Origin: Acetobacteraceae bacterium
GTDB taxonomy: Bacteria; Pseudomonadota; Alphaproteobacteria; Acetobacterales; Acetobacteraceae
Length of the DNA stretch: 35,266 nucleotides
Direction of reading: 5' to 3'
Assembly (NCBI GenBank): GCA_027449745.1
Contig: DAIDKZ010000233.1
Span: forward strand, 1 to 35,266
Shown: positions 2,124 through 29,407 of the stretch, one piece after another
Numbering within the stretch: the stretch's first letter is position 1
How the letters are laid out: every line of letters starts with the position of its first letter
Notes under the pieces: model-generated
The model's database searches: none
Told to the model about the DNA's origin: nothing
What the model saw: the letters and a program-made list of their open reading frames with translations, nothing else
Translations under genes and position numbers: made by a program

Positions 2124-3283
2124 GGCCGGCGGCGGCGCGCGGCATCGGCGTCGTCGCCGCCGGCTTCGCCACGTTCGTCAATCTCTATGCCACCCAGGCG
2201 GTGCTCCCGCTCCTGGCGCACGAGTTCGCCGTGCCGCTGCCGCGCACCGGCCTCACCGTCACCGCGCCGCTGTTCGCGGTGGCGCTGATCGCGCCCTTCG
2301 TCGGTTCGATCTCCGACCGGCTCGGGCGCAAGCGGCTCATCACCGTGGCCGCCTGGCTGCTGGCGGTTCCGACCGCGCTGCTCGCCGTGACGCCGGACTT
2401 CGCCACCCTGGTCCTGCTGCGCTTCCTTCAGGGACTTGCCCTGCCTTTCATCTTCGCCGTCACCGTCGCCTATATCGGCGACGAGGCACGCGAGGCCGAG
2501 GGCATCCGGCTCGCCGGCACCTATTCGGTCGGCACCATCGTCGGCGGCTTCGCCGGGCGGTTCATCCTCGGCCATGTCGCGGCGCTCGCCGGCTGGCGGG
2601 CGGGCTTCGTGGTGATCGCGATGCTGACGGCACTCGCGGCGGCCGTGGTCGGGCTGATCCTGCCGCGCGAGCGAAATTTCGTCGCCCAGCGCGGGCTCGG
2701 CGCCGCGCTCGAAAGCCTGCGGGCGCATCTCGCCAACCGCCAGCTCATCGCCACCTACGCGGCTGGGTTCGCCGTGCTGTTCTCGATCGTCGCGGCCTTC
2801 ACCTACGCCAATTTCCTCCTCGCCGCTCCGCCCTACCGGTTCGGGCCGGCAGCGCTCGGCAATCTGTTCGCGGTCTATCTGCTGGCCATCGTCTCGACAC
2901 CGGTAGCCACCCGGCTTGCGGTGCGGATCGGCCGCCGCGGCACGTTCGCGCTCGCCGGCATCGTCGGCATGAGCGGGATGGCGCTCACCCTGGTGCATGG
3001 GATCGGCGCCATCGTCGCCGGCCTCGGCCTGGCGATCGGCGGCATGTTCATCGAGCAGGTGCTGGCGATCTCCTATGTCGGCGCGGCGGCGGTACGCGCG
3101 CGCTCGACCGCCGTCGGGCTCTACGTCACCTTCTATTACATTGGCGGCAGCCTTGGCGGCGTGGCGCCGGCCGGGCTGTGGCACCTCGCCGGCTGGCCCG
3201 GCTGCGTCGCCCTGGTGCTGTTCGTCCAGGCCATGACACTGGCCGTGGTGACGGCATTCTGGCGCGACAAGGCAGCGGCGTGA
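2120..3283 (+). CDS. MFS transporter, 12-TM drug/metabolite exporter type
   Basis: Major facilitator superfamily permease of 387 residues with the regular spacing of 12 hydrophobic helices. The signature loop between helices 2 and 3 is present (GSISDRLGRKRLI), and the N-terminal TQAVLPLLAHEFAV is typical of proton-driven exporters of the YnfM/arabinose-efflux kind. The start is a GTG at 2120 overlapping the GtrA stop codon (GTGA), so the two are probably co-translated. The binding-protein gene at 3364 follows after 80 bases on the same strand and could be cotranscribed. Export of a drug or small metabolite is the likely activity; the substrate is not predictable. Confidence 0.88.
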   Translation: MRPAAARGIGVVAAGFATFVNLYATQAVLPLLAHEFAVPLPRTGLTVTAPLFAVALIAPFVGSISDRLGRKRLITVAAWLLAVPTALLAVTPDFATLVLLRFLQGLALPFIFAVTVAYIGDEAREAEGIRLAGTYSVGTIVGGFAGRFILGHVAALAGWRAGFVVIAMLTALAAAVVGLILPRERNFVAQRGLGAALESLRAHLANRQLIATYAAGFAVLFSIVAAFTYANFLLAAPPYRFGPAALGNLFAVYLLAIVSTPVATRLAVRIGRRGTFALAGIVGMSGMALTLVHGIGAIVAGLGLAIGGMFIEQVLAISYVGAAAVRARSTAVGLYVTFYYIGGSLGGVAPAGLWHLAGWPGCVALVLFVQAMTLAVVTAFWRDKAAA

Positions 3284-3363
3284 TACGCACCCCGTTCCGT
3301 CGTCTGACGCTCCGGCCGGCCGGACCGGACATGGCGGCAAGAAACCTTGGAGGGAGAAGCACC

Positions 3364-4587
3364 ATGACCCTGTCACGCCGGCTGTTGCTCGGCACCGCCG
3401 CCGCCGCCCTGTCCGCCCCCCGCGCGCGGGCGCAGGCCCGGCCGAAAATCCGCATCGGCGTGCTCAACGACCTGTCGGGCACCTACCGGGACACGACCGG
3501 GCTGACCTCCGTGGTCTGCACCAAGCAGGCCCTGGTGGATTTCGGCGCCTCGGCGAAGGACCTCGACGTCGAGATCCTCTCGGCCGACCATCAGAACAAG
3601 CCCGATATCGGGGCCACGATCGCCCGCCAATGGTTCGACCAGGGCGTGGATGCGATCGTCGACGTGCCCACCTCCTCGGTCGCGCTCGCCGTCGCGCAGG
3701 TCGCGCGCGAGAAGGACAAGATGATGCTCAACGCCAGCGCCACGACGACGGCGCTGACCGGGGCCCAGTGCTCGCCCAATACCATCGTCTGGAGCTTTGA
3801 CACCTACATGCTGGCGACCTCCTCGGGGGGCGCGATGGTCAAGGCCGGCGGCAAGGACTGGTTCTTCATCACCGCCGATTACGCGTTCGGCCATATTCTT
3901 GAGGAGCAGACGAGCAAGCTGGTGCTGGCCGCGGGGGGCAAGGTGCTCGGGCGGGTGCGCTACCCGTTCCCCGACACGACGGATTTCTCCTCCTTCATCC
4001 AGCAGGCACAGGCCTCGGGCGCGAAGGTGCTCGGCCTTGCCAACGCCGGGCTGGATACGGTGAACTGCATCAAGCAGGCGAACGAGTTCGGCCTACCGCA
4101 ATCGGGCATGCGCATCGCCCCGCTGCTGATGTTCATCACCGACGTGCATGCGCTCGGAGCCCAGATGTGCCAGGGGCTGACCCTGACCGAGAGCTTCTAC
4201 TGGGACCTCAACGACCGCACCCGCGCCTTCACCAAGCGCGTGCTGCCGCTGACCCCGAACAACTGGCCGAACCAGGCCCACGCCAGCGCCTACGCAGCGA
4301 CCCTGCACTATCTGAAGGCCGTCGCCGACATGGGGCCGGCGGAGGCGAAGCGCAGCGGCCGGGCGACGATCGAACGCATGAAGCGGATGCCGACCGAGGA
4401 CGATTGCTTCGGCAAAGGGGCGATCCGGGCCGACGGGCGCGGCATTTTTCCCGCCTATCTGTTCCAGGTGAAGACGCCCGCCGAAAGCACCGGGCCATGG
4501 GATCTCTATAAATTGAAGGTGACGACCCCGCCCGAGGCAGCGCTGCATCCGCTGGGCGAAGGCGGCTGCCCGCTGACGCACCTCTGA
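3364..4587 (+). CDS. ABC transporter substrate-binding protein, branched-chain amino acid (type I) class
   Basis: Periplasmic type I solute-binding protein (Peripla_BP_6 class), 407 residues. The ATG at 3364 follows a strong GGAGGGAGAA ribosome site. The N-terminus (MTLSRRLLLGTAAAALSAP) is a twin-arginine-like leader ending near RARAQA. The mature domain opens KIRIGVLNDLSG and carries DHQNKPDIG, shared almost word for word with the protein at 7054-8286. This subclass often serves aromatic acids as well as amino acids: CouP of Rhodopseudomonas palustris, a phenylpropanoid-binding protein, is of this type. No permease or ATPase genes adjoin it. Because the molybdenum hydroxylase follows on the same strand, I infer the two act on a related compound. 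Confidence 0.92.
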   Translation: MTLSRRLLLGTAAAALSAPRARAQARPKIRIGVLNDLSGTYRDTTGLTSVVCTKQALVDFGASAKDLDVEILSADHQNKPDIGATIARQWFDQGVDAIVDVPTSSVALAVAQVAREKDKMMLNASATTTALTGAQCSPNTIVWSFDTYMLATSSGGAMVKAGGKDWFFITADYAFGHILEEQTSKLVLAAGGKVLGRVRYPFPDTTDFSSFIQQAQASGAKVLGLANAGLDTVNCIKQANEFGLPQSGMRIAPLLMFITDVHALGAQMCQGLTLTESFYWDLNDRTRAFTKRVLPLTPNNWPNQAHASAYAATLHYLKAVADMGPAEAKRSGRATIERMKRMPTEDDCFGKGAIRADGRGIFPAYLFQVKTPAESTGPWDLYKLKVTTPPEAALHPLGEGGCPLTHL

Positions 4588-7064: not shown

Positions 7065-8286
7065 CCAGCGGGCAATGGCCCTCGGCCAGCGGGCGAAACG
7101 CCTGCTCGGCCGGGATCGTCGATACCAGGTTGAACATGTCCCACTCCCCGTGCGACTCGGCCGGCGTCTTGGTCTGCATGAGATAGACCGGATGCATGGC
7201 CCGGCCGTCGGCGCGAATCACACCCTTGCCGAACAGCGGATCGTCGGTCGGGATTGCCTTCATCGCCGCCACCACGGCGCGGCCGTCCTCAGCGGCCCCC
7301 AACTGCTTCACCGCTTTCAGATAGTGCAGCACGCCGGCATAAACGCCGGCCTGCATGTCGTTGGGCATGATGTGGCGAGGATGGCGTGCGGCGAAGCGCT
7401 TCGCGAACGCACGCGAGGCATCATCATGGTCCCAGTAGAACGGCATCACCGCTAGAACACCTTGGGCGTTCGCCAGGCCGATCGGCTTGATGACGTTGAT
7501 GTTGACGATCGGCCCAGCAAACTGCATGCGCCCGGCCAAGCCGAATTCGCGCGCCTGCTTCAGCGCCGTCACCGTATCGTCGCCGGCGTTCGCCAATCCC
7601 AGCACATCCGCACCCGATGCCTGCGCCTCGACGAGATAGGTCGAGAAATCCGTCGTCCCGAGCGGATGACGCACCGTGCCGACGACGCTGCCGCCCGCCG
7701 CCTTCACCGCCTCGGCCGTACTGCTCTCCAGGGCGGTGCCGAAAGCGTAGTCGGCGACGAAGAAGAACCACTTCTTCCCGCCATGTGCGACGACCGCGCG
7801 TCCGAGCGCGTGGCCCGCCTCCCAGGTGTCGTAGGTCCAGTGCACGGTGTTCGGCGAGCATTTCTCCCCGGTGAGTGCGGCGGTGCCGGCACCTGACCCG
7901 ATGAAGACCTTGTTCTTCTGGCGCACCAGATCAGCCACCGCCAGCGCAATCGAGGAGTTCGGCACATCGACGACGACATCGACGCCATCCTGGTCGAACC
8001 AGGCCCGCGCGATGGCCAGCCCGATATCCGGCTTGTTCTGGTGATCGCCGAAGACCACCTGCGCCTTGGCGCCGTTCACCGGCCCGAAATCCTCGACCGC
8101 CATCTGCGCCGCCACCACCGAGCCCTGGCCTTGATAGTCGGCGTAGACACCGGAAAGATCATTCAGAACGCCGATCTTCACGGGCTTGGTCTGAGCCATG
8201 GCAGCACTCATGCCCGTCCAGCCGAGCGCCAGGACACACCCGACCAGAGCGACCCCGGTGCGCCGCTGCAATTCCATTCGCTTCAT
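7054..8286 (-). CDS. ABC transporter substrate-binding protein, branched-chain amino acid (type I) class, paralogue of 3364-4587
   Basis: Periplasmic type I solute-binding protein of 410 residues, clearly paralogous to the 3364-4587 product: both have IGVLNDLSG, DHQNKPDIG, a VDVP-x-SS-x-ALAVA block, FFxxADYAFG, TTDFS and VLGLANAG-x-DTV. The start is the ATG at 8286 with GGAGGGAA just upstream. The leader MKRMELQRRTGVALVGCVLAL ends near AMAQ. It is divergent from the MarR gene at 8404, so the two probably share a control region. With a hydroxycinnamate operon beyond the regulator, an aromatic-acid ligand is a reasonable inference. It has no permease or ATPase gene here. Confidence 0.92.
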   Translation of the reverse strand: MKRMELQRRTGVALVGCVLALGWTGMSAAMAQTKPVKIGVLNDLSGVYADYQGQGSVVAAQMAVEDFGPVNGAKAQVVFGDHQNKPDIGLAIARAWFDQDGVDVVVDVPNSSIALAVADLVRQKNKVFIGSGAGTAALTGEKCSPNTVHWTYDTWEAGHALGRAVVAHGGKKWFFFVADYAFGTALESSTAEAVKAAGGSVVGTVRHPLGTTDFSTYLVEAQASGADVLGLANAGDDTVTALKQAREFGLAGRMQFAGPIVNINVIKPIGLANAQGVLAVMPFYWDHDDASRAFAKRFAARHPRHIMPNDMQAGVYAGVLHYLKAVKQLGAAEDGRAVVAAMKAIPTDDPLFGKGVIRADGRAMHPVYLMQTKTPAESHGEWDMFNLVSTIPAEQAFRPLAEGHCPLVKP

Positions 8287-8403
8287 CGCGTTCCCTCCAT
8301 CGTTGTCGTTCTATCCTCGCGGCACGCTCCCGCGCCACGCTTGCGCCATGGCCGGCGTCACTCCTACAGTTGCAGCCACCATGAGCCACACATCCCGCCG
8401 GCA

Positions 8404-8877
8404 ATGAGCGACGTCTCCGCTCCACCCTGCACGACACTTGACGACCGCGCGATCGACATCGGGCCGTTGCCACAGCTCGTCGGCTACGCGCTGCGCCGTG
8501 CCCAGCTCGCGGTGTTCCAGGATTTCTACGCCACCTTCGCCGAATTCGACATCCGTCCGACGCAGTTCTCCGTGCTCACCGTGCTCCGCCACAATCCGGG
8601 ACGGCGTCAATCGCAGATCGCCGACGCGCTCGGCATCAAGCGCGCCAATTTCGTTGCCTTGTTCGACGGCCTGCGCACACGCGGGCTGGCCGAGCGGCGG
8701 CCGGCGCCGGATGACCGGCGGGCGCACGCACTCTACCTCACCGAGGCAGGCGCGGCTCTGCTCGACGAGCTCGCCGTACCGCTGGCACGTCACGAGGGCC
8801 GCTTCATCGCGCGGCTCGGCGCGGCGGACATGCAGCGGCTCCTCACCCTGCTCCATCGCATCACCGGCGACGGCTGA
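8404..8877 (+). CDS. MarR family transcriptional regulator
   Basis: Winged-helix regulator of 157 residues. The core PTQFSVLTVLRHNPG, QSQIADALGIKRANFVALFDGL and the wing RRPAPDDRRAHALYLTEAG are the MarR fold with recognition helix and DxRA wing motif. The ATG at 8404 fits the usual N-terminal length, but its ribosome site is weak. It is divergent from the binding-protein gene and converges on the thioesterase gene, overlapping it by 17 bases. MarR proteins such as CouR, FerC and HcaR repress hydroxycinnamate operons and release DNA on binding a hydroxycinnamoyl-CoA. I infer the same role here, with the inverted repeat at 13273-13287 as a candidate operator. Confidence 0.9.
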   Translation: MSDVSAPPCTTLDDRAIDIGPLPQLVGYALRRAQLAVFQDFYATFAEFDIRPTQFSVLTVLRHNPGRRQSQIADALGIKRANFVALFDGLRTRGLAERRPAPDDRRAHALYLTEAGAALLDELAVPLARHEGRFIARLGAADMQRLLTLLHRITGDG

Positions 8878-9321: not shown

Positions 9322-10578
9322 TCAGGATGAGAATACTGGATTTTCCACCAGCAATGCGATGCCCTGGCCACCGCCGATGCAGGCCGAGGCGATGCCCCGC
9401 CGAAGCCCGGCACGGCGCAGTTCGCGCGCCAGCGTCACCGCCAGGCGCACCCCGGTGGCGCCAAGCGGATGGCCGATCGCGATGGCGCCACCATTGACGT
9501 TGAGCCGGGCCTCGTCGAGGCCGAGTTCGCGAACGCAGGCGAGTACCTGGGCACCGAACGCCTCGTTGATCTCGATGCGGTCGATGTCATCGAGCGACAG
9601 CCCGGTGCGCGCGAGCAGCGCGCGGATCGCCGGCGCCGGCCCAATTCCCATGATCTCCGGCGCACAACCGACGGCGACGCCGGCGACGAGGCGGGCAAGG
9701 GCCGGGCCGGAATGCCGGCGCAGAAACGCGCCCGAGCACACCAGCGCGGCCGCGGCGCCATCCACGACGGCCGAGGAATTGCCGCCGGTCTGCACGCCGC
9801 CGAACGCGGGGCGGATCCGCGCCAGCGCCTCGACCGACGAAGGCCTGACATGCGTGTCTTCGGCCAGAGGCGCGGTCCCGCGCGGCAGCGCGATGCCCCG
9901 TGGCCGTAGTCCATCGACGGCAAAGACCTCGTCTCCGACAGCGACGATCTCGGCCTCGAAGAAGCCGGCTTGGCGCGCGGCGAGCGCACGCTGGAAGCTG
10001 CGCGCGGCGTACGCATCGACTTCTTCGCGGCGAATATCGTAGCGGCGGGCGAGGTTTTCGGCCGTTCCACCCATCGTCACATCGGCGGCGGGGTCGAGCA
10101 GCGCTTCCCAGAGGAAGTCCTTGAACTCGACCTGGCCCATGCGGAAGCCGCCGCGATGGGTGTAGGCCGCGACCGGATTGCGGCTCATCGATTCGGTACC
10201 GACGCAGAGCGCCAGATCGACCCCGCGCTGGACGGTCTGGTCGGCGCCCTGCATGATCGCCTCGATCCCGGTGCCGCACACGCGCTGCACCATCATCGCC
10301 GGCACCGCCTGGGGGACGCCGGCATAGAGCCCGACATGGCGCGGCAGCATGTAGGCATCGAAGCTGGCCTGCGCCATGTTGCCGGTGATGACGCTGCCGA
10401 CCGCGTCGGCCGGCACGTGGGCCCGCGTCAGCACCGCGCTTGCCGCCTTGATGGCCAGATCGGTCGGCGAGACCAGGGCGAAGGCGCCGTTGTAATCCAC
10501 GAACGGCGTGCGCACGCCGTCGAGCAGCCACGCATCGTCCCAGCGGCTGACGACGGCTTGCGGCGATGCATCGTTCAT
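9322..10578 (-). CDS. Thiolase (acetyl-CoA acetyltransferase / 3-ketoacyl-CoA thiolase family)
   Basis: Thiolase of 418 residues, a normal length for the family. All active-site elements are visible: nucleophile Cys101 in VCGTGIEAI, NEAFGAQ at 338-344, His370 in GHPLGATG and Cys400 in CIGGGQG. The start is the ATG at 10578 with GGAGG eight bases upstream. It overlaps the stop codon of the preceding ligase gene by four bases (ATGA), indicating translational coupling. Its likely role is to cleave the 3-keto-3-arylpropionyl-CoA formed from a hydroxycinnamoyl-CoA into acetyl-CoA and an aroyl-CoA. In Pseudomonas HR199 the thiolase gene aat sits beside fcs and ech, so this arrangement has precedent. 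Confidence 0.92.
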   Translation of the reverse strand: MNDASPQAVVSRWDDAWLLDGVRTPFVDYNGAFALVSPTDLAIKAASAVLTRAHVPADAVGSVITGNMAQASFDAYMLPRHVGLYAGVPQAVPAMMVQRVCGTGIEAIMQGADQTVQRGVDLALCVGTESMSRNPVAAYTHRGGFRMGQVEFKDFLWEALLDPAADVTMGGTAENLARRYDIRREEVDAYAARSFQRALAARQAGFFEAEIVAVGDEVFAVDGLRPRGIALPRGTAPLAEDTHVRPSSVEALARIRPAFGGVQTGGNSSAVVDGAAAALVCSGAFLRRHSGPALARLVAGVAVGCAPEIMGIGPAPAIRALLARTGLSLDDIDRIEINEAFGAQVLACVRELGLDEARLNVNGGAIAIGHPLGATGVRLAVTLARELRRAGLRRGIASACIGGGQGIALLVENPVFSS

Positions 10579-12428
10579 CGATGGTCCTCCACGAGGATGA
10601 CGTCCGCGGACGGCGGATCGGCATAGAGTGCGGCGACGTCCGCCGCCCGATGGGCCAGCATGGCGCGCTGATTGAGCGAGCCCTTGTCGGTGACCTCGCC
10701 ACGATCGAGCGACGGCGGGGTGACCAGCAACAGCGCACGGCGGACCCGGTTCGAGCTGCCGGTCGCGCGCCCGGCCAGCTCGGCGAGAGTGGTGGCGATG
10801 CGGGTGCGTACGCGGGGATCGGCGAGCAGCTCCGTATCCGCCGCCGGCGCGTTGCGATCGGGCCGCAGGGCCCGGCAGGCGGCGAAGTCGGGCACGGCGA
10901 GGATCGCGACGTAATCGCGGTTCTCGCCGGCGATGACGACGTCGCGGACGAGCGGTGTCAGCGCGGTGAGGAGCGCCGCGCGAAGCGGGCCGACACTCAC
11001 CCATGTGCCGGTGGAAAGTTTGAAATCCTCGGAGATGCGCCCTTCGAACCGGAAGCCCTTGAACGGCGCCGTCTCGTCCACGAACGCCAGCGCATCGCCG
11101 AACTTGTAGAAGCCGAGCTCGTCGAACGCCGCATCCGTGCGCGCCGCGTCGCGCCAGTAGCCCGGCGTGATGTTCGGCCCGCGCACGCGACCTTCCAGCT
11201 TGCCCTGCACCGGCGCGAGCCGCAGTTCGACGCCCGGGACCGGCAGCCCGACCATGCCCGAGGCGGCGTAGTCCTTGCTGCAGGCGAGCGCGAACGGCGC
11301 CGTCTCGGTCGAGCCGAGACCGGTGAGCATGACGATGCGCTCGCCGCAGGTTTCCACCGCCAGCGCATCGAGCGCATCCCAGACAGGCTGGGCAAGTCCG
11401 GCGCCGGCATAGAACATCATCTTGAGCCGGCTGAAGAAGATCTCGCGCAGCGCCTTCTCACGCGCGAGATAGGGCACCAGCTCCTCGTAGCCTTTGGGCA
11501 CGTTGAAATAGACCGTCGGGGCGATCTCGCGCAGGTTGCGCACCGTCGCCTCGATGGCGCCCGGCATCGGCCGTCCATCGTCGATGTAGAGCGTGCCACC
11601 ATTGTTGAGCACCAGGCCGACATTGTGGTTGCCGCCGAACGTGTGGTTCCAGGGCAACCAGTCGACGATCACGGGCGGCTCGGTGGCGAGGACCGGGTAG
11701 GTCTCGACCAGCATCTGCTGGTTACTGCACAGCATGCGTTGGGTGTTGATGACACCCTTCGGCAGCGCGGTGGAGCCGGAGGTGAAGAGGAATTTCGCGA
11801 TCGTGTCCGGCCCCACTTTGGCGGCGGCCGAGTCGACGGCGGTGCCGGCAGTGCGGGCGAGGAGATCGGCGAAGGCAGTCATGCCTGCGTGTGGGCGCGC
11901 CGCGACGATCTCGCATCCCGCCGGTTTCGTGGCCGCGATCGCGGCGGCGAAAGCGGCGCCATCATCGGCGAAAATCAGGCCCGGGGTCAGCACGCCCATG
12001 ATGTGCCGCAGCCGCCCATAGTCGGTCGCCACCAGCGAGTAGGCAGGCGAGATCGGCGCGTAGGGCACGCCGACATGCATCGCGGCCAGACCGAGCAGCG
12101 CATGGGCGATGGAATTTCCCGACAGGATGGCGATCGGCCGTTCCACCGACAGGTCCCGATCGAGGATCGCCTGGCCGAGTGCGCGAACGGCTGCCAGCGT
12201 CTCTCCATACGTGCAGATATTCCACCCACCGCCGGCCGCGCGCTCGGCGAGGAAGGCGCGCTCCGGCGCTGCGCGCGCCCAGTGTTCCAGCCGTTCGGTG
12301 AGCCGGTCCGCGTAGGTGCCGAGCTGATCGATCGGCCGCACCAACCAGCCGCCGTCCTGTTGGCGTTCGCAGCGGACCTGCCAGGTACGCAGCGCGACCT
12401 CCCGCGTCCGCATATAGGTGTCCGGCAT
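10575..12428 (-). CDS. fcs: Feruloyl-CoA synthase-like AMP-dependent acyl-CoA ligase
   Basis: ANL-superfamily ligase of 617 residues that would activate ferulate, p-coumarate or caffeate with ATP and CoA. The phosphate-binding loop is [10 protein letters not shown] (216-225) with an Ala where Gly is usual. [12 protein letters not shown] (258-269), GSTET (372-376) and [15 protein letters not shown] (463-477) are the blocks I associate with the feruloyl-CoA synthase subfamily rather than 4CL or acetyl-CoA synthetase. I chose the ATG at 12428, which follows a GGGGGA; a TTG at 12446 would add six residues. The crotonase gene lies upstream (stop at 12450) and the thiolase start overlaps its stop. 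Substrate assignment is by family resemblance only. Confidence 0.85.
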
Positions 12429-12449
12429 TCCTGGTCCCCCGACCAAACT

Positions 12450-13235
12450 TCAGCCGCGATGGACGACTTTGCCGGCGCGCTTGTCGAGAAAGGCGCGCAG
12501 CCGGTCCTTCGCCTCGGGCGCGGCCTGTGCCACCGCGGACATCAGCGATTCGAGCAGCAGGCCGGTGGCAGGATCCGAATCGGCGATCCGCGGCAGCGCT
12601 TCGATCAGAGCGAAATTGGTCAGCGGCGCGTTCTCTGCGACGCGGCGGGCCAGTTCCACGCCCTTCGCCAATCCTGCGCCAGGTTCGGCGAGATACTGCG
12701 AAAAGCCGAGCGACACGCCCTCCTCGGCGCCGTAGGTGCGCCCGGTGAGCATCATGTCCATCATCCGCGCCACGCCGATCAGGCGCGGCAGCCGCACCGA
12801 GCCGCCGCCGCCCACAAAAATACCGCGCGACCCTTCCGGCAGCGCGTAGAAGGCGCCGCGTTCGGCCACGCGCAGATGCGCGCTGGCCGCCAGTTCCAGC
12901 CCGCCGCCGACGACCGCGCCGTGCAGCACGGCAATCACCGGCACGCCGCAATGCTCGATGCGCTCGAAGGCGCGGTGCCAGAGCCGCGAATGCGCGAGGC
13001 CGGCGGCCGCGTCGCGCTCCTCAAGATCGGAGAGGTCGAGCCCGGCGGAAAAATGGTCACCCTCGCCATGCAGCACCACGGCCCGGACCGCCGGCGGCAG
13101 TTCAGTGAATATCCGCTCCAGCCCGGCGATGCTCGCGCTGTCGAGCGCGTTGCGCTTATCCGGCCGCGCCAGCCGGACCAACGCGATGCCATCGTCGATG
13201 GCGACCGCCAGCGGCTCGGATCGACGTTCCAGCAT
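12450..13235 (-). CDS. Enoyl-CoA hydratase/isomerase (crotonase) family
   Basis: Crotonase-fold enzyme of 261 residues, first gene of the putative hydroxycinnamate operon. It has the oxyanion-hole pieces HFSAGLDL and GAVVGGGLELA. The Glu of GLEL and the Glu of LPEGSRGI fall at the positions of the two catalytic glutamates of rat enoyl-CoA hydratase, so hydration is plausible. It does not closely resemble the Pseudomonas feruloyl-CoA hydratase/lyase Ech as I remember it. It could therefore be a plain hydratase feeding a beta-oxidative route, or a lyase giving an aromatic aldehyde. The start is the ATG at 13235, about 40 bases downstream of the promoter and inverted repeat at 13273-13306. Confidence 0.88.
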   Translation of the reverse strand: MLERRSEPLAVAIDDGIALVRLARPDKRNALDSASIAGLERIFTELPPAVRAVVLHGEGDHFSAGLDLSDLEERDAAAGLAHSRLWHRAFERIEHCGVPVIAVLHGAVVGGGLELAASAHLRVAERGAFYALPEGSRGIFVGGGGSVRLPRLIGVARMMDMMLTGRTYGAEEGVSLGFSQYLAEPGAGLAKGVELARRVAENAPLTNFALIEALPRIADSDPATGLLLESLMSAVAQAAPEAKDRLRAFLDKRAGKVVHRG

Positions 13236-13371: not shown

Positions 13372-13941
13372 ATGCTCGGGGAGATCGTCGCAGGCAGCGG
13401 GTTGGGAGCGCTGGTGGGCATGCTGCTCGGCCTCTCGGTCTCGCACGTCGTGGGGGGCGTCATCGGTGCGCTGGCGGCGCTGCTTGGCGCCTTTCTCGGC
13501 CTGCGCGGCGACGGCCCGGTGGGGCGAACCTGGCGCATCGGCGCATTCGGCTTCGCCTGTTTGATCGCCGTGCTCGCCGGCCTTTCGGTGCGCACCTATG
13601 CGCTGCTGGCGCCGAGCGTGCAGGACGATGTCGCCGCCTGGACCCGCGCGGGCTATTCCGCCGATGAAGCGCGCGCCTATGTCGCGCTCGAGCGGCTCGG
13701 GGTGAAGCCGGCGCAGCACGACGTGATCGCCACCCCTGCGCCGGGCGCAGCGTCCGATGCGCTGTTCGCCGGGCCAACGGCCGGTCTCTGCGCGCGGCTC
13801 GACACCATGCCGGCCCCCGTCAAGCTCCGCCTGCTGCGCGGCGCCGGCGTGCCCTACGCGGCGATCGCGGCGGCCGCCGAGGCTGCCGCGGATCCTGCCA
13901 AGGCGCTGGCAGCCGGCATGGAGGTTCTGTGCGGCGGTTGA
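13372..13941 (+). CDS. Membrane protein of unknown function
   Basis: I do not recognise this 189-residue protein. The ATG at 13372 follows a strong GGAGGGCGA. The first 75 residues hold three glycine/alanine-rich hydrophobic stretches, of which the first (GLGALVGMLLGLSVSHVVGGVIGAL) resembles glycine-zipper segments. The remainder is soluble, with two similar helical pieces: a first around WTRAGYSADEARAYVALERLG and a second around LLRGAGVPYAAIAAAAEAA. The end overlaps the GTG start of the trypsin-like gene by 13 bases, so the two are probably translated together. A membrane anchor or partner for the downstream secreted protease-like protein is a guess from context. Confidence 0.75.
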   Translation: MLGEIVAGSGLGALVGMLLGLSVSHVVGGVIGALAALLGAFLGLRGDGPVGRTWRIGAFGFACLIAVLAGLSVRTYALLAPSVQDDVAAWTRAGYSADEARAYVALERLGVKPAQHDVIATPAPGAASDALFAGPTAGLCARLDTMPAPVKLRLLRGAGVPYAAIAAAAEAAADPAKALAAGMEVLCGG

Positions 13942-15953
13942 CGCTGGCCGCGCTGCTGGCCTGGGGCCTGGCCGCGCCCGCCGCAGCCGAGGGCCCCGAC
14001 CTCACCGTGCTCAACCGGGTCGCGCCCTCGGTGGTGCGGATCGTTGCCGAGGGATGCGCCGGCGCCGAACCGGCGCGAACCGGGTCCGGCTTCGTCTGGG
14101 GCAGCGGACACCAGGTCGTCACCGACCTGCATGTCGTCATCGGCTGCCGCGCGGTCCGGGTCGGGTATCAGGGCATCGACGAGCTCTCGGCGCGGATCGC
14201 CAACGTGTTTGTCCAGGCCGACCTGGTCCTGCTCGACGTCGACCAGCCTCCCGCCGCGGTCGGCGGGCTCGACCTAGCGGCCAGCGTGCCCACCGTCGGG
14301 GCCACGGTGGACGCGTTCGGCTATCCGCTGGGACTGCCCGAACGCGACACCAAGGAACTGCATATCTCCTACGCCACCGCCGGCTCGCCGGAGCTGCGCC
14401 AAGGCCTGCCGGCCGACGTTCTGGCTGCGCTGCAGAAGCAGGGGTTTCCCGCTCTCGACATCGATGTCCTGCATCTGGATGGCAATCTGCTGCCGGGACA
14501 TTCCGGCGCGCCGCTGATCGATGGCGCCGGCCGCGTCGTCGGCGTCGGCTCGGGCGGGCTGGCGCGCGGTACGGTCGGCATCGGCTGGGCGGTGCGCGCG
14601 CAGTATGTCGGCCAGTTGCCGAGCCACCATGACCCGGTGCCGACCGGCTCCGAGGAAGCGGCCGCGAGCTTCGCCTACGCCGAACCGGCAGCGGCGGCCG
14701 ATACCGTGCGGTGCGGCGGGCTCACCCTGGTGCGGACCCGCACCGCCGACCTGGCCGACCTCGCCGCCAGTTCCGATGATCCCGACCGGCTCGAACCGCT
14801 CGCCCGCGCGCTCACCGCCAGCAGCGTCGCGGCGCTGGGGACGATCCGCTACGCCATCTGGACCGAAACGGCATCGGGCGCCGCGATCGCGGTTCCGGCC
14901 GGTCTCGCCATCGCGCCGACGGCCGAGGGATGCGACTTGCAGCTGCGCCCGCCGAACCTCCGTCTGGTGATGCGGATCGGCCCGCTGGCCGGCGCGGTCG
15001 CCAGCCTGCCGTGGGACCTCGCCCGGAACCGGCTGCAATGGGAATCCTTCCTGGCGATCGACCGCCTCATCGGGTCGGGGATCACCTATCGCGGTTACGG
15101 GCTGACGGATGGACCGCATCTGGTCAATGGCGCCGAGGTTCTGCGCCGGATCGGCGATGGCCATGGGGCGGACGGCCGGACCATTCGGATGTTCCGCTCC
15201 GACCTCGCCGGTCGCGGCGCCTACATCATGATCGCGGCCATCGACACCGCGGCCGAGCCGCCCGAGCGCATGGGCGCGGAGGAGCGGGCCGCCTGGGCGG
15301 CGGCGCTGTTTGCCGTGCAGCTGAGCTCGTTCCCGCCGCTGCCGGGCGAGCCGCCGAACGGATCGAAGCCGTTCCCCCGCACCTTCGACCTCGCCCGCTG
15401 CGGCGATCTCGGCCTGACGTTGCTGCGATCCACCACGCTCGGCGCGCTGGCCAAGACGGGAAAGGACCAGCCCTCGGCGCGGACCGACGCGCCGGTGGGG
15501 CTCTGGGTCAACCCCGACTGGGGCTTCACCCTGCCTCTGCCCGCTGGCATGGCCCCAGCCGCGAGCGAAAGCGCCTGCGTCATGCCCTGGCGCGAGCACG
15601 ACCGGGTGCGCTTCGTCGTCCGCACCGTCAGCCGCTCTGCCGCCATGGCGCGCGCGCGGCGCGGCGACGGCAGAGCGACATGGGCCGCGGCGCTGGAGGC
15701 CGAGCAATCCGGCTTCGTCCGGCGGCTTGCAACGCTCGCCGGCGCGACCTGGCGCGACCCGTCGCCGGCGGTGCGCGCCCGCAGGCAGTCGTGGCAGATG
15801 ACATCGGCCGACGGCCGCCGCGCCATCGTCATCCGCATCCATGGCCTTGAATACGCCCTCTTCGTCGCCGCCCTGCTGGAGCCCGATGTCTACCCCCGGG
15901 TGCGGACGCTGGCGGACCACGCGATCGCCGCCACCGGCGAGGGCTTGCCCTGA
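13929..15953 (+). CDS. Secreted trypsin-like serine protease domain protein with duplicated C-terminal domain
   Basis: Predicted exported protein of 674 residues. A signal peptide (MRRLTLAALLAWGLAAPAAA) precedes a trypsin-like domain to about residue 230. The triad is readable: His68 in TDLHVV, Asp98 in ADLVLLD, Ser192 in PGHSGAP, the last a variant of GNSGGP. The rest, about 260-670, is not PDZ. It looks like two copies of one domain: RCG at 261-263 with PAGLA and Cys335, and RCG at 490-492 with PAGMA and Cys550. In each copy PAG lies exactly 12 residues before the Cys, suggesting a disulphide per repeat. The start is a GTG at 13929 overlapping the previous gene. I do not recognise the repeated domain; a protein-quality or regulatory protease of the envelope is likely. 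Confidence 0.82.
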   Translation: MRRLTLAALLAWGLAAPAAAEGPDLTVLNRVAPSVVRIVAEGCAGAEPARTGSGFVWGSGHQVVTDLHVVIGCRAVRVGYQGIDELSARIANVFVQADLVLLDVDQPPAAVGGLDLAASVPTVGATVDAFGYPLGLPERDTKELHISYATAGSPELRQGLPADVLAALQKQGFPALDIDVLHLDGNLLPGHSGAPLIDGAGRVVGVGSGGLARGTVGIGWAVRAQYVGQLPSHHDPVPTGSEEAAASFAYAEPAAAADTVRCGGLTLVRTRTADLADLAASSDDPDRLEPLARALTASSVAALGTIRYAIWTETASGAAIAVPAGLAIAPTAEGCDLQLRPPNLRLVMRIGPLAGAVASLPWDLARNRLQWESFLAIDRLIGSGITYRGYGLTDGPHLVNGAEVLRRIGDGHGADGRTIRMFRSDLAGRGAYIMIAAIDTAAEPPERMGAEERAAWAAALFAVQLSSFPPLPGEPPNGSKPFPRTFDLARCGDLGLTLLRSTTLGALAKTGKDQPSARTDAPVGLWVNPDWGFTLPLPAGMAPAASESACVMPWREHDRVRFVVRTVSRSAAMARARRGDGRATWAAALEAEQSGFVRRLATLAGATWRDPSPAVRARRQSWQMTSADGRRAIVIRIHGLEYALFVAALLEPDVYPRVRTLADHAIAATGEGLP

Positions 15954-16041: not shown

Positions 16042-17454
16042 ATGCCAAGACGCCTGATGGTCTGGCTGCTGATGCTGGCCGCCGCTGCGGCCGGGTCCAC
16101 GCCCGCCGCTGCGGGCAACCCCCTGGCCGTCCAGCAGCCGCGGCCTCTGCCGGAGATCGTGGCGCCGCTCTTGCCGGCGGTCGTGAACATCACCGTTCTG
16201 CGCCAGCCGAACGGCGCCGCCGCCCAGGGCGCGGAAGACATGCCCAAGCCGGTCACCGGCCTCGGCTCCGGCTTCATCATCGATGCCGACGGCTACATCG
16301 TCACCAACCGCCATGTCGTCGCCGGCGGCTATTCGGTCACCGTCGTCCTGAACGACGAGCGTGCCTACAAGGCGCGCGTTCTCGCCACCAACGAGCGGCC
16401 GGACCTGGCGCTGCTGAAGATCGAGGCCGGACACAAGCTGCCCACGGTCGCGTTCGGCGACAGCGACGCGCTGCGGGTCGGCGAGCCGGTCGTGGCCATC
16501 GGCAACCCTCTCGGCCTCAGCAGTTCGGTGAGCGTCGGCGTCGTCAGCGCGCTCAACCGCAACCTCAACAGCACGATGATCGATGACTTCGTGCAGACGG
16601 ATGCGGCCATCAACGAGGGCAATTCCGGCGGCCCGCTGTTCAATCTCCAGGGCCAGGTCGTCGGCGTGAGCTGGGCCCTGGTCACCCCCGGCAGCGCCAG
16701 CGGCTCGGCCGGGCTCGGCCTCGCCATTCCCTCGCGGGACGCGGCCTGGGTCATCGGCCAGATGCGTCGCTACGGCCGCGTCCGCGCCGGGTTCCTCGGC
16801 GTCCGTGTCCAGGAGGTGACGCCGGACATGGCCGATGTACTCGGCCTCCCGGAGACGAACCCCGGCGGCATCATCGCCGGCATCTGGCCCGGCGGGCCGG
16901 CGGACAAGGCCGGCATGCGCGAGGGCGATGTCATCCTCGCCTTCAATCATTGGGAGCCGCACGACGTGCGGGCGCTGCTGCGGGCCATGGGGTCGAGCCC
17001 CCCGGGCCAGCCGGTTCCAGCGGTGATCTGGCGGGAGGGCCGGACCGAGACGGTGCAAGTCACGCTCACGGACTGGCGCGACCCGCGTGATGATCCGGCT
17101 GGCGCGCCGGTCGCGGTGGATCGCGGCACCCGGCAGCGTTCGCCCGATCTCGGCTTGCATATGGCGAGCGCCGATGCGGCTGCGGTCCGCACCATCCAGC
17201 TCCCCGACGGACGGACCGACGTGACCATGCACGGCGTCACCGTCGTCGGCGTCGCCGCCAACAGCGCGGCTGCGGATGCCGGCTTTGCCGCCGGCGACGT
17301 AATCCTGCGCGTGATGAACGCGCCGGTCGCCACCCCGGCGGAGGTCACAAGCGCGCTCGAGGCGGCCCGCGCGGACGGGCGCAAGGCGGTGATGATGCTG
17401 GTTTTGACCGACAGCCGTACCCACTGGGTGGTGGTACCGATCCACGAAGGGTAG
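16042..17454 (+). CDS. HtrA/Deg family periplasmic serine protease with two PDZ domains
   Basis: Deg-type protease of 470 residues. A signal peptide (to about residue 24, STPAAA) is followed by the S1C protease domain with His91 (TNRHVV), Asp121 (RPDLALLKI) and Ser195 (NEGNSGGPLF), so it should be active. Two PDZ-like regions follow, about 255-345 (LGVRVQEVTPDMADVLGL, then GGPADKAGMREGDVIL) and 370-465 (NSAAADAGFAAGDVIL). The Q-linker and LA loop are short, more DegQ/DegS-like than DegP-like. The ATG at 16042 has GAGG/GAAG upstream. It lies 88 bases after the trypsin-like gene and may share its transcript. Role: degradation or refolding of misfolded envelope proteins. It is clearly diverged from the Deg protease at 27899. 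Confidence 0.92.
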   Translation: MPRRLMVWLLMLAAAAAGSTPAAAGNPLAVQQPRPLPEIVAPLLPAVVNITVLRQPNGAAAQGAEDMPKPVTGLGSGFIIDADGYIVTNRHVVAGGYSVTVVLNDERAYKARVLATNERPDLALLKIEAGHKLPTVAFGDSDALRVGEPVVAIGNPLGLSSSVSVGVVSALNRNLNSTMIDDFVQTDAAINEGNSGGPLFNLQGQVVGVSWALVTPGSASGSAGLGLAIPSRDAAWVIGQMRRYGRVRAGFLGVRVQEVTPDMADVLGLPETNPGGIIAGIWPGGPADKAGMREGDVILAFNHWEPHDVRALLRAMGSSPPGQPVPAVIWREGRTETVQVTLTDWRDPRDDPAGAPVAVDRGTRQRSPDLGLHMASADAAAVRTIQLPDGRTDVTMHGVTVVGVAANSAAADAGFAAGDVILRVMNAPVATPAEVTSALEAARADGRKAVMMLVLTDSRTHWVVVPIHEG

Positions 17455-19180: not shown

Positions 19181-19759
19181 TCAGAGCCAGCGGAGCAGGA
19201 GGAATCCGCCGATGATCCCGCCGGCCAGCAGGGTCGTCACCAACCCCAGGCGCCGCTCGATGAAGCCGCGCACCGGGTCGCCGAAGGCGCGCAGCAGCGC
19301 CGCCAGCAGCAGGAAGCGCGCGCCACGCGTCGCCAGGCTCGCCACCATGAACAGTGCAAAATCGAACCGCGCCGCGCCGGAGGCGATGGTGACGAGCTTA
19401 TAGGGGATCGGCGTCAGCCCCTTGATCAGGATCACCCACAGGCCCCACCGGGCGTAGGTCTCCTGGAATCGGGCGAACGCCGCGTCGTAATGGTAGAGTT
19501 TCAGGATCGGCGCGGCGATCTGGTTGAACAACGCATAGCCGATGAAATAGCCCAGCGCCCCGCCCGCGACACTGGCCAGCGTGCAGATCAGCGCCAGCCG
19601 CCAGGCACGCTTCGGCCGCGCCAGGGCCATCGGGATCAGCAGCGCATCCGGCGGCACCGGGAACACGCTGCTCTCGGCAAAGGCGATGACGGCGAGCCAC
19701 ACCGGAGCCCGCGGCGAACCGGCCAGCGCCAGCACGCGGGCATAGAGGCGATGAAGCAT
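19181..19759 (-). CDS. YqaA family (VTT/DedA-like) inner-membrane protein
   Basis: Polytopic membrane protein of 192 residues with a VTT/SNARE-associated domain. FAESSVFPVPPDALLIPMALARP and the later GLWVILIKGLTPIPYKLVTIASGAAR are the paired re-entrant motifs of the YqaA/DedA group; the proline- and charge-bearing motif lies within the membrane. DedA-type proteins help recycle lipid carriers such as undecaprenyl phosphate or scramble phospholipids. The start is the ATG at 19759, only 9 bases after the LpxR-like gene, so the pair is an operon. Coupling an outer-membrane lipid A modifier with a lipid-handling inner-membrane protein suggests an envelope-lipid function, which is inference. Confidence 0.88.
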   Translation of the reverse strand: MLHRLYARVLALAGSPRAPVWLAVIAFAESSVFPVPPDALLIPMALARPKRAWRLALICTLASVAGGALGYFIGYALFNQIAAPILKLYHYDAAFARFQETYARWGLWVILIKGLTPIPYKLVTIASGAARFDFALFMVASLATRGARFLLLAALLRAFGDPVRGFIERRLGLVTTLLAGGIIGGFLLLRWL

Positions 19760-19768
19760 GGCTGCCGA

Positions 19769-20779
19769 TCAGAACCGGAACGAGGCGGCGAGCGATCCGA
19801 ACTGATGCAACCCGGCGCGCTGCGTGCGGAACTCGGCGGTCTGGAAGGCTTGCGTGTAGGAGATGCGCACGCCGTCGAGGATCATCGCCAGACCGATTTC
19901 GAGCTCACCCTGCAGCGGCACCAGCGAGACCGCCGGGCTGGTCCGAAAATTGTTGCCGGTGATCAGCATATCGTGCGCGACACCCTCGCCATGGGCGCCG
20001 ACGAACGCATACCAGTCGAACGGTGTCACCGGCGTGTAGGCATCGCCGCCGCCCGGCCCGGGAAACACCCGCGGCACACCGAAATCCGACTGCAGGCCCT
20101 GGCCGATGCGGATGACCCCACCGGTCATCGCGTAGATGCGCAGATTGCCGAGCCCGACCGAAAGGTCCGGCAGCACGTCCGTCTCCAGCCCGCCGAGGCT
20201 GCCCGTGGTCAGGCGCCAGATGCGGGCGCTGACGAACTCCGCCACCGGCTCGTCCTGGATCTGGTACGTGCCCCAACCCCTCGTGCCCTTCTGGCCGATG
20301 ATGCTGTGGAACCCGTTCTGCACCAGCTGGCCGCCGGCGTCCGGTCCGACGAGCCCGACATCCACGCCGATGATGCTGCGTGTTGTCGTGGTGTCCTGGA
20401 GCAGCGCGAAATCCGCCGTCAGCACGCCGGCGAAAGGCCGGTCGCCGGCCGGCGGATGTCCGGAGGTCGTGTCGGCGGGCGTAAAGATCGATTGGCCGAT
20501 ATTGACGCTGACGCGCTGGCGCCCTTCGCCCCAAAGGTCGCGCCCGATGCGGCTCACGAAGTCCGGAACGTCCTCGGTGGGCGAGGTGTAGCCGAGCAGC
20601 AGGCCATTGACGTAGTACCGGTCCGGCAGGTTCGCCGAGGTGATCGAGGCGTTCTCGTCCTGGAAGGTCCAGATCGCGTGCGGATCCGGCGGTGGCTCGT
20701 CCGCCCATGCGCTGCCCGCCGCGAGTACAAAACCACCCGCCGCGAGCAGCCGGGTGATGAGGGAGGGAGTTCGGGCCAT
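19769..20779 (-). CDS. Lipid A deacylase LpxR family outer-membrane protein
   Basis: Predicted outer-membrane beta-barrel of 336 residues with a signal peptide ending at SAWA-D and a C-terminal Phe (ASFRF), the usual barrel-insertion end. Family motifs are DRYYVNGLLLGY (53-64), DRPFAG (113-118), and LVQNGFHSIIGQ with His158 followed by GWGTYQIQDEP. His158 matches the catalytic His122 of Salmonella LpxR. The family normally has Asn-Asp in the first strand; here Asn43 is followed by Ala44, so the Asp seems to be lost. LpxR removes the 3'-acyloxyacyl chains of lipid A in a calcium-dependent way. Activity of this member is therefore uncertain. The ATG at 20779 lacks a strong ribosome site. Confidence 0.82.
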   Translation of the reverse strand: MARTPSLITRLLAAGGFVLAAGSAWADEPPPDPHAIWTFQDENASITSANLPDRYYVNGLLLGYTSPTEDVPDFVSRIGRDLWGEGRQRVSVNIGQSIFTPADTTSGHPPAGDRPFAGVLTADFALLQDTTTTRSIIGVDVGLVGPDAGGQLVQNGFHSIIGQKGTRGWGTYQIQDEPVAEFVSARIWRLTTGSLGGLETDVLPDLSVGLGNLRIYAMTGGVIRIGQGLQSDFGVPRVFPGPGGGDAYTPVTPFDWYAFVGAHGEGVAHDMLITGNNFRTSPAVSLVPLQGELEIGLAMILDGVRISYTQAFQTAEFRTQRAGLHQFGSLAASFRF

Positions 20780-27798: not shown

Positions 27799-27812
27799 TG
27801 TTCAGGTGAACA
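27799..27812. promoter_or_regulatory. Palindromic site upstream of the Deg protease
   Basis: TGTTCA-GG-TGAACA is a 6-bp inverted repeat with a two-base centre, roughly 90 bases before the protease start at 27899, in a stretch less GC-rich than its surroundings. It has the shape of a dimeric repressor site. No obvious -35/-10 pair is seen, and the owner is unknown. Confidence 0.35.
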
Positions 27813-27898
27813 AGTCCAAATACACGATCATCTCAACCCGGGCATCGGCCCGGTCGAATTGGGCCACAGATCGATCGTTGAAGGAGTCTATCCTGTCC

Positions 27899-29407
27899 AT
27901 GACAAACTCGAAACTTTCTTCTCATCCCTCGCCGCGTCGCAAGATCGCGCGCGCCGCGCTGGCTCTCGCGCTGCTCTCGGGCACCGCGCTGGCCGGTTAC
28001 GGCGCTGGCCATGGCGTGTTCGCAGGCGAAGCGATCGCGCCCGCCGCGCCCGCCGCGCGCGTGCCGGATTTCGCCGCCGTGGTCGCACGTGTGAAGCCGG
28101 CGGTCGTTTCGATCACCACCCATCTCCAGGTGAGCGAGGCCGCGCAGGAAGGCCCGGTGCCGTTCCCCTTCGCCGTCCCCAACCAGGGCGAGCCCGACGC
28201 CGCTGGCCCGCGAATGACCGAGGCGCGCGGGTCCGGCTTCATCATCGACGCCAATGGCACCATCGTCACCAACAACCATGTGGTGAAGAATGCCAAGTCG
28301 GTGACGGTCACCCTGTCCGACGGCACCGAACTCAAGGCCCGTGTGCTCGGCCGTGATCCACGCACCGATCTGGCGGTGCTGAAAATCGACCCGCCGCATA
28401 GCCTGTCCTATGTCGCGCTCGGCGATTCCGACAAGGCGCAGCCCGGCCAGTGGGTCATCGCCATGGGCAACCCGTTCGGCCTCGGCGGCAGCGTCACTGC
28501 CGGCATCGTCTCGGCTCGTGGCCGCGACATCGGCAACGGCCCATACGACAACTTCATCCAGGTCGACGCGCCGATCAACCAGGGCAATTCCGGTGGCCCG
28601 CTCTTCACCCAGGATGGCGAGGTGATCGGGGTCAACACGGCCATCCTCTCGCCGAGCGGTGGCAGTGTCGGCATCGGCTTCGCCATCCCGTCCAACATGG
28701 TCAAGACCGTGGTGGCGGCGCTCGAGACCGATGGGCATGTCACCCGCGGCTGGCTCGGGGTTGAAGCGCAGCCGGTGGACAAGGCGCTCGCCGCCGCGCT
28801 CGGGCTGCCGGCAAAGACGGCGGCCGAGGGCGCGCTGGTCGCCTCGGTGGCGCCTGACAGTCCGGCGTCGCGGGCCGGGCTCGAACCGGGTGATCTGATC
28901 GTCGGCGTCGATGACAAGCACGTCGCCAACCCGCGCGACCTCGCGCTCGATATCGCCGCGATGAAGCCCGGAACATCGGCGAGCCTGGCCATTCTGCGGT
29001 CCGGCGAGACGCGGACCCTGACCGCGACGCTCGCCACGCAACCCGGCGAGCAGGTCGCCGACCGCGGTGGCGCCACCAAGCCATCCGATACGCCACGGCT
29101 CGGTCTCGCGCTGCAGCCTCTGACGCCGGAATTGCGGGGTCAGATCGACGTACCGCGGGGCACCGAGGGGGTCGTGGTCGCCGGCGTCGAGCCTGGCTCG
29201 CCGGCCGAAGCGGCGGGGATGCAGCCCGGCGACGTCATCCTCGGCGTCGGCGCGCACACGGTGAAGACACCGCAGGAGGCAATCACGGCGATCCGCAGCG
29301 AGGCGCATGCACGCCACGCGGTGGCGCTGCGCATCCTGCGCGACGGCCAGGTTGGCTATGCCGCGGTCGAGCTGCGCCGCTCCGAGAAGAGCGCCGACCA
29401 GGGCTGA
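27899..29407 (+). CDS. Do/DegP-type periplasmic serine endoprotease with two PDZ domains
   Basis: HtrA/Do protease of 502 residues, the standard length for alphaproteobacterial Do. A basic N-terminus and hydrophobic helix (KIARAALALALLSGTALAG) make a signal peptide or anchor. The triad is His127 (TNNHVV), Asp157 (RTDLAVLKI) and Ser231 (NQGNSGGPLF). PDZ1 (about 284-375) contains LGVEAQPVDKALAAALGL and PDZ2 (about 398-490) contains GSPAEAAGMQPGDVIL. I chose the ATG at 27899 with AAGGAG upstream; an ATG at 27806 would add 31 atypical residues. Function: quality control of envelope proteins. A stem-loop after the stop separates it from the convergent chaC-like gene. Confidence 0.93.
   Translation: MTNSKLSSHPSPRRKIARAALALALLSGTALAGYGAGHGVFAGEAIAPAAPAARVPDFAAVVARVKPAVVSITTHLQVSEAAQEGPVPFPFAVPNQGEPDAAGPRMTEARGSGFIIDANGTIVTNNHVVKNAKSVTVTLSDGTELKARVLGRDPRTDLAVLKIDPPHSLSYVALGDSDKAQPGQWVIAMGNPFGLGGSVTAGIVSARGRDIGNGPYDNFIQVDAPINQGNSGGPLFTQDGEVIGVNTAILSPSGGSVGIGFAIPSNMVKTVVAALETDGHVTRGWLGVEAQPVDKALAAALGLPAKTAAEGALVASVAPDSPASRAGLEPGDLIVGVDDKHVANPRDLALDIAAMKPGTSASLAILRSGETRTLTATLATQPGEQVADRGGATKPSDTPRLGLALQPLTPELRGQIDVPRGTEGVVVAGVEPGSPAEAAGMQPGDVILGVGAHTVKTPQEAITAIRSEAHARHAVALRILRDGQVGYAAVELRRSEKSADQG

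Follow-up and report, generated by a model that had tools for sequence, protein, structure and literature searches.

A trypsin-like protease with tandem units of predicted Mog1p/PsbP-like fold and its conserved membrane-protein neighbour in an Acetobacteraceae bacterium

Trypsin-like proteases of the bacterial envelope are usually pictured as "protease plus PDZ". The PsbP-like fold is familiar from other settings: it occurs in photosystem II and in chaperones of secretion, as well as in nuclear transport. Among the domain architectures of prokaryotic trypsins, a survey from 2008 lists Tryp-PDZ, Tryp-PDZ-PDZ and Colicin_V-Tryp, and the main text of that survey, at least, does not contain the words PsbP, Mog1, DUF1795 or DcrB (PMC2605481). 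The periplasmic protease MarP lies behind four putative transmembrane helices, carries the triad His235/Asp264/Ser343 and cleaves RipA in acid (PMC6628586). The protein analyzed here resembles the HtrA/DegP/DegS (Do) proteins in having the Trypsin_2 fold followed by extra C-terminal domains; it has, however, no PDZ domain. Like MarP it is a chymotrypsin-like protease, but the anchor and the protease of MarP form one chain, whereas here the membrane part is encoded by a gene of its own. The N-terminal transmembrane region that marks MarP is not found in the protease chain, and the membrane segments are encoded by the upstream gene. MarP is not known to have PsbP-like units. No description of a trypsin domain combined with a PsbP/Mog1-like domain was found among the matches listed for open-licence PubMed Central, which covered titles and the beginnings of abstracts. 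The fold is known and the protease is known; their combination, together with a conserved partner, appears not to have been described before.

The analyzed DNA (hereafter the window) is a stretch of 35,266 nucleotides from an Acetobacteraceae bacterium, positions 1-35,266 of the forward strand of contig DAIDKZ010000233.1 (GCA_027449745.1). The protease gene occupies positions 13929..15953 on the plus strand, as the original prediction had it, and is an open reading frame of 674 codons (674 aa) with a GTG start. A Shine-Dalgarno-like GGAGG was read at 13920..13924 on the same strand, 4 nt 5' of the GTG and within the upstream gene. Residues 1-21 (MRRLTLAALLAWGLAAPAAAE; 13929..13991, plus strand) were recognized by eye as a putative signal peptide with cleavage near AAA/E. 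A hydropathy scan of the protease protein gave a single segment, residues 632-650, which is located inside the second C-terminal unit. We infer that the protease is exported.

Two other species of the same genus have full-length protease proteins 88% and 85% identical to that of the window. Comparison of the whole gene with that of one of these congeners showed 45/45/114 nucleotide differences at codon positions 1/2/3, so that the frame is under protein-level selection; the open reading frame is a real gene. The corresponding counts were 9/7/40 for the protease part (645 nt), 7/11/29 for unit 1 (654 nt) and 27/25/41 for unit 2 (585 nt). Unit 2 is thus the least constrained part of the protein and is evolving faster.

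Residues 52-206 (14082..14546, plus strand) match the Trypsin_2 domain of Pfam (PF13365, E 2.8e-16) at 61 bits against a gathering score of 27.6, which places the domain in this family of the S1/PA clan. The triad columns of the alignment are occupied by His68 (codon 14130-14132), Asp98 (14220-14222) and Ser192 (14502-14504), all on the plus strand. The three residues are invariant in a 12-row alignment and are kept in the thirteenth member of the family, L091; the glycine following the active-site serine is likewise invariant among the aligned members. With the complete triad and the apparent signal peptide, the protein fits its earlier description as trypsin-like and secreted in appearance, and the product of the reading frame would be proteolytically active through His-Asp-Ser. 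The motifs TDLHVV (at His68) and GHSGAP (at Ser192) are placed where they had been reported. The reading of GHSGAP as a departure from the usual wording, however, did not hold: GxSGAP is found in 9 of the 13 family members and GxSGGP in the other 4, the triad being kept in all 13, so that this is ordinary variation.

The PDZ domain, the lack of which had been pointed out, was indeed not detected in the protease protein by Pfam at E values up to 1, and the tail of the protein matched no Pfam or NCBIfam domain. The best NCBIfam match was MarP (NF033740, residues 23-227, E 1.9e-15), at 56.8 bits against a cut-off of 250. The HtrA models scored below MarP, TIGR02037 (HtrA/DegP, Do) giving 37.2 bits against a curated cut-off of 416.2. 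The solved structures nearest by sequence were chains of Deg1, HTRA1, HTRA2, DegP-like proteins and HhoA, with Deg/HtrA proteins in 31 of 31 rows. Two other assignments were rejected. The match to the anti-phage defence model RT-Protease_XI of PADLOC (E 6e-8) covered only the end of the model, positions 348-487 of 506, and corresponds to a generic protease domain. The three PHROGs matches of the whole protein, which might have indicated a phage protein, all fell on the protease domain. PHROGs also gave one weak match to unit 1 (E 0.0064).

The protease domain is followed by two units, unit 1 at residues 258-475 (14700..15353, plus strand) and unit 2 at residues 480-674 (15366..15950, plus strand). 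The tandem C-terminal duplication, which had been recognized by eye, was confirmed by the profile-profile comparison suggested beforehand. In hhalign, a unit-1 profile of 12 rows matched a unit-2 profile from the genus of the window (3 rows) with a score of 55.4 (P 4.4e-8), and with a score of 56.8 (P 3.5e-8) when the second unit of L047 was added (4 rows). Column-shuffled controls, 200 in each of two sets, did not exceed 20.3 and 22.3, respectively, so that the similarity of the two units is not explained by chance. With a 12-unit profile from which all second units were left out, the window's unit 2 scored 28.7 bits (E 4.9e-8 for 1000 sequences) and its counterparts in the congeners 25.1 and 23.8 bits; that of L047 was recognized weakly, at 13.4 bits (E 0.0023 for 1000 sequences). 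In the opposite direction the signal was weak, a profile of the three second units of the genus matching the window's unit 1 with E 0.004. An earlier unit-1 profile of 7 rows had found a second unit in only one of the three genomes of the genus in a whole-genome search (G001, E 1.6e-4). The similarity in sequence between the units resides mainly in their first 85-130 residues; the later part is matched by the predicted structures only.

In a tree of the units, the second units of the genus group with that of L047 (97/96) on long branches. A profile of the former does not find the latter (E 8.8). In another member, L073 (G549), the protease and the recognized unit are separated by an extra segment some 200 residues long (3203-3793). 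The tree places this segment beside the recognized unit of the same protein (95/93), on a very long branch, and no unit profile recognizes it (E 48 and 33 for 1000 sequences). A scheme of two independent duplications was therefore dropped, on account of that very long branch and of the failure of the profiles to recognize the segment.

The two units were modelled separately with AF2 from an 18-row alignment, in which the extra segment of L073 forms one row. The model of unit 1 had a pLDDT of 89.6 and a pTM of 0.88, and that of unit 2 a pLDDT of 83.3 and a pTM of 0.82. The order of strands and helices is broadly alike in both models, unit 1 having a few extra short elements. Since the alignment used for both mixed first and second units, the models are not fully independent. 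The best VIA-align match of unit 1 was PsbP (4rth; Z 10.8, 3.2 Å, 148 residues), and that of unit 2 was cyanobacterial PsbP (2xb3; Z 10.2, 4.0 Å, 139 residues). MTC28, LpqN, Mog1p, DcrB and the Eag chaperones (EagT6, SciW) followed for both units at Z of about 6-9; according to the tool's own warning, matches at this level may reflect a common arrangement only. For unit 2, weaker matches included RseB (2v43; Z 5.4 over 78 residues) and trigger factor (Z 5.2). Foldseek returned 17 rows for unit 1 at E up to 0.001, the best being PsbP (2.6e-5); for unit 2 it returned no row at that level, and the best was chain P of photosystem II (0.0021).

In the predicted models, the fold of both units is thus the Mog1p/PsbP-like fold, which is a known fold, and the units are unnamed at the sequence level. 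The structural alignments span about 110-153 residues at about 4-15% identity. Those with PsbP differ in leaving about 45 N-terminal residues of the units uncovered, which form a beta hairpin and helices in unit 1. A fold match at an identity of about 10% says nothing firm about the function of the units. A Pfam search of 17 units gave six families at E up to 1, none of them PsbP, DcrB or Mog1, with a best E of 0.021; a search of the PDB by sequence gave three rows for the unit, the best at E 0.17, which is chance level and was discarded. The claim of an undescribed domain is therefore sustained for the sequence, for which there is no named family (Pfam E at least 0.021 in 17 units), and fails for the fold. 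Structure prediction of the two halves, which had been proposed as a check, did not give two unrelated folds, and it did match the region to another named domain, that of the Mog1p/PsbP-like fold. A known role of proteins with this fold is that of a type VI secretion adaptor, according to the source cited here (PMC12419801). This role was set aside for the present locus, as no component of that system was found among the 28 open reading frames of the window that were scanned.

The protease of the window contains exactly six cysteines: Cys43 and Cys73 in the protease domain, Cys262 and Cys335 in unit 1, and Cys491 and Cys550 in unit 2. Cys43, the first cysteine of the protease pair, sits just before the Pfam Trypsin_2 match. 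With the signal-peptide region left aside, the pair of the protease domain is complete in 12 of 13 proteins and absent in L091. The pair of the units is complete in 15 of 17 recognized units and absent in two, those of L073 and L091. No domain with one cysteine of a pair and not the other was found in the 13 proteins and 17 units. Cysteines which are kept or lost together are what would be predicted for disulfides in an oxidising compartment, and the conservation pattern suggests the bonds Cys43-Cys73, Cys262-Cys335 and Cys491-Cys550. The original prediction had noted an RCG motif in each unit, found here at Cys262 and Cys491, and a cysteine 12 residues after PAG; with PAG at 323 and 538, Cys335 and Cys550 are indeed each exactly 12 residues past its proline, a spacing that is accounted for by the pairing within each domain. 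The units of L070, L071, L072, L073 and L091 have a further cysteine pair in their later half, again in twos, and in L073 and L091 it is the sole pair. This pattern suggests an alternative disulfide.

Thirteen proteins of the family were read (that of the window, L003, L004, L044 to L047, L069 to L073 and L091). Two recognized units are present in four of them, namely that of the window, its two congeners and L047; eight have a single unit, and L073 has one recognized unit together with the extra segment. Among the genomes sampled, the unit profiles detected the protease family in 8 out of 397 for the window's own taxonomic family (weak matches in G202 and G288 lying outside this count), 5 out of 385 for the class (weak matches in G481, G621 and G650 likewise outside) and 3 out of 329 for the phylum (weak matches in G898 and G1021 likewise outside). 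The genome of the window is included in all three counts. The phylum count also includes G549, the strong match of which is circular, its protein L073 having already been a row of the search profile. The sole member outside the class is in G917, which is the only one of the 41 genomes of its own family to carry the protease. The protease family is thus rare and scattered. When the window protein was compared with 60 relatives, 38 gave a match and, congeners aside, the listed matches were confined to residues 1-259, the protease part; the best protease-only match was L005 (E 2.4e-16). L006 was set aside as an ordinary HtrA by eye, and L048 (G284, E 0.0057) was dropped as a DprA-like protein by eye. 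Among plasmids, the window protein matched one record, from Vitreoscilla, over residues 25-198 only, the annotated neighbours being unrelated. The L045 protein matched 257 records, and the 20 listed of these 257 fall on residues 52-244, the protease domain; the partner of L045 found no plasmid record.

Directly upstream of the protease gene, a membrane-protein gene of 189 aa (13372..13941, plus strand), which the original prediction had overlooked, was recognized from tblastn homologs, their alignment and hydropathy. We read the hydrophobic stretches 1-46 (a hairpin) and 53-81 of its product as about three membrane-spanning segments. About 105 residues follow as a C-terminal domain, in which Cys140 and Cys187 are conserved; both are kept in all 12 aligned rows and are found at matching places in L091. 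A Pfam search of 12 partners gave a best E of 0.022 (glycine zipper) and no match to CvpA/Colicin V.

A tblastn search with the window partner found a homolog directly 5' of the protease in 11 of 11 loci, congeners included (E 1.2e-7 to 9e-111), and also directly upstream in L091, which belongs to another class (E 6.7e-20). The pairing therefore holds in 13 of 13 genomes, window included; five families of the class are represented, and a second class by one genome. When 385 genomes of the class were searched with a partner profile, four genomes of the protease family and the window's own were found at E 4e-57 or better, a recovery which is expected since the partners of those four are rows of the profile, so that the pairing statistic is partly circular. 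Elsewhere in the 385 genomes the profile matched only five others (G471, G500, G619, G625 and G705), at E 4.2e-4 or worse. The independent part of the pairing consists of the lack of any strong partner match without the protease and of the tblastn search made with the window partner alone. When the 327 open reading frames with 100 codons or more that lie outside the operon were compared all against all, across 11 loci of 6-14 kb and without the congeners, no other shared gene emerged (E 1e-6, more than 60 residues).

In the window, partner and protease genes share 13 nt. With starts that were partly chosen by us, the overlap is 4 to 19 nt in L044, L047, L072, L073 and L091, and the gap is 1 nt in L071 and 17, 17 and 62 nt in L045, L069 and L070, respectively. 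Among the 10 loci in which the junction was measured, 6 thus overlap and 4 are spaced by 1 to 62 nt; the start in L046 is ambiguous. Partner and protease are probably translationally coupled.

As for the remainder of the window, an HtrA/DegP-type gene with two PDZ stretches lies directly downstream of the operon (16042-17454; 371 bits to TIGR02037, cut-off 416), an adjacency seen within the genus only. Another HtrA/DegP-type protease is encoded at 27806-29407 and covers nearly the full model (475 bits to TIGR02037). An LpxR-type outer-membrane protein (19772-20779; PF09982, 2e-83) is encoded beside a VTT-domain protein (19184-19759). A cluster of thiolase, AMP-binding ligase and enoyl-CoA hydratase genes occupies 9322-13235 on the minus strand, together with the open reading frame of a MarR-type regulator at 8041-8877 on the plus strand; the hydratase gene adjoins the operon in the genus only.

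We propose, with moderate confidence, that the two genes form a module of the cell envelope in which proteolysis is carried out by a membrane-docked protease. The proposal starts from the observed domain order, triad, duplication and conserved gene pairing, and from the fold of the predicted models. The first gene would encode a small protein of the inner membrane; beyond its roughly three helices, a soluble domain at the C-terminus is probably stabilised by a disulfide. The second, overlapping the first, would encode a serine protease of trypsin fold that is exported and carries one or two Mog1p/PsbP-like units in place of the PDZ domains. These units would most likely be binding modules: unit 1 would dock the protease onto the membrane partner, and unit 2, where present, may bind a substrate or ligand or may be losing its role. 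Since eight of the 13 members have one unit, the second is dispensable for the basic function. The division of work would be as in MarP but spread over two genes, so that the module would loosely be a two-gene counterpart of MarP or DegS. The docking is suggested by an exported protease, by modules of a fold that docks elsewhere on membrane-linked partners, and by a dedicated membrane protein. The docking and the substrate are our inference, and a lasting operon could also pair an enzyme with a substrate or a regulator of it.

In another, rather unlikely, interpretation, the membrane partner would be the substrate or signal receiver, its periplasmic domain being cut when the units sense a ligand or misfolded protein. 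RseA has this role for DegS, and RseB is a regulator of that pathway. The gene pairing suits a dedicated substrate as well as an anchor, and RseB is among the weak matches of unit 2. That match, however, is no better than those of unrelated proteins such as trigger factor. The partner, moreover, has no recognized cytoplasmic output domain in Pfam (best E 0.022), only a short domain after its membrane segments.

It also seems doubtful that the protein is a general periplasmic quality-control protease of the HtrA type, in which the units would select substrates and the upstream gene would be a neighbour without contact. The common superfamily, the extra domains in the same place and the Deg/HtrA identity of all 31 rows of solved chains speak for such a role. 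The window, however, already encodes two HtrA/DegP-type proteins, and in all 13 genomes the gene is kept directly upstream although the other neighbours vary in the 11 loci compared, which would not be expected of a bare neighbour. Also improbable, in our view, is an effect of the units on their own protease, in which they would serve as a pro-region-like clamp or an oligomerisation domain and control access to Ser192. Their fusion at the C-terminus, like that of PDZ domains, would suit such an arrangement, and release could be triggered by the partner. It is highly improbable that the protein is a receptor or adhesin which keeps the trypsin fold but is proteolytically dead. The GxSGAP of nine members instead of the usual GxSGGP might be cited for this reading, but invariant His, Asp and Ser and the invariant glycine after the serine would be unexpected in a dead enzyme.

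The membrane-docked module which we favour may be extended to a more specific form. Eag chaperones grip the transmembrane helices of effectors. By analogy, the fused PsbP-like domains might grip a hydrophobic or transmembrane part of the partner, and the state of the membrane, through lipid stress or the redox state of the paired cysteines, might switch the protease, which would make the pair a PDZ-free counterpart of DegS/RseA. We regard this joint proposal as speculative and hardly probable; if true, it would represent an undescribed envelope system.

For the family as a whole, the place of the PDZ domains is taken over by a different binding fold, as far as the models predict it. The conserved membrane partner makes the function directly testable through two adjacent genes. 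Recognition of the family would also give a name to some proteins so far annotated by their protease domain alone.
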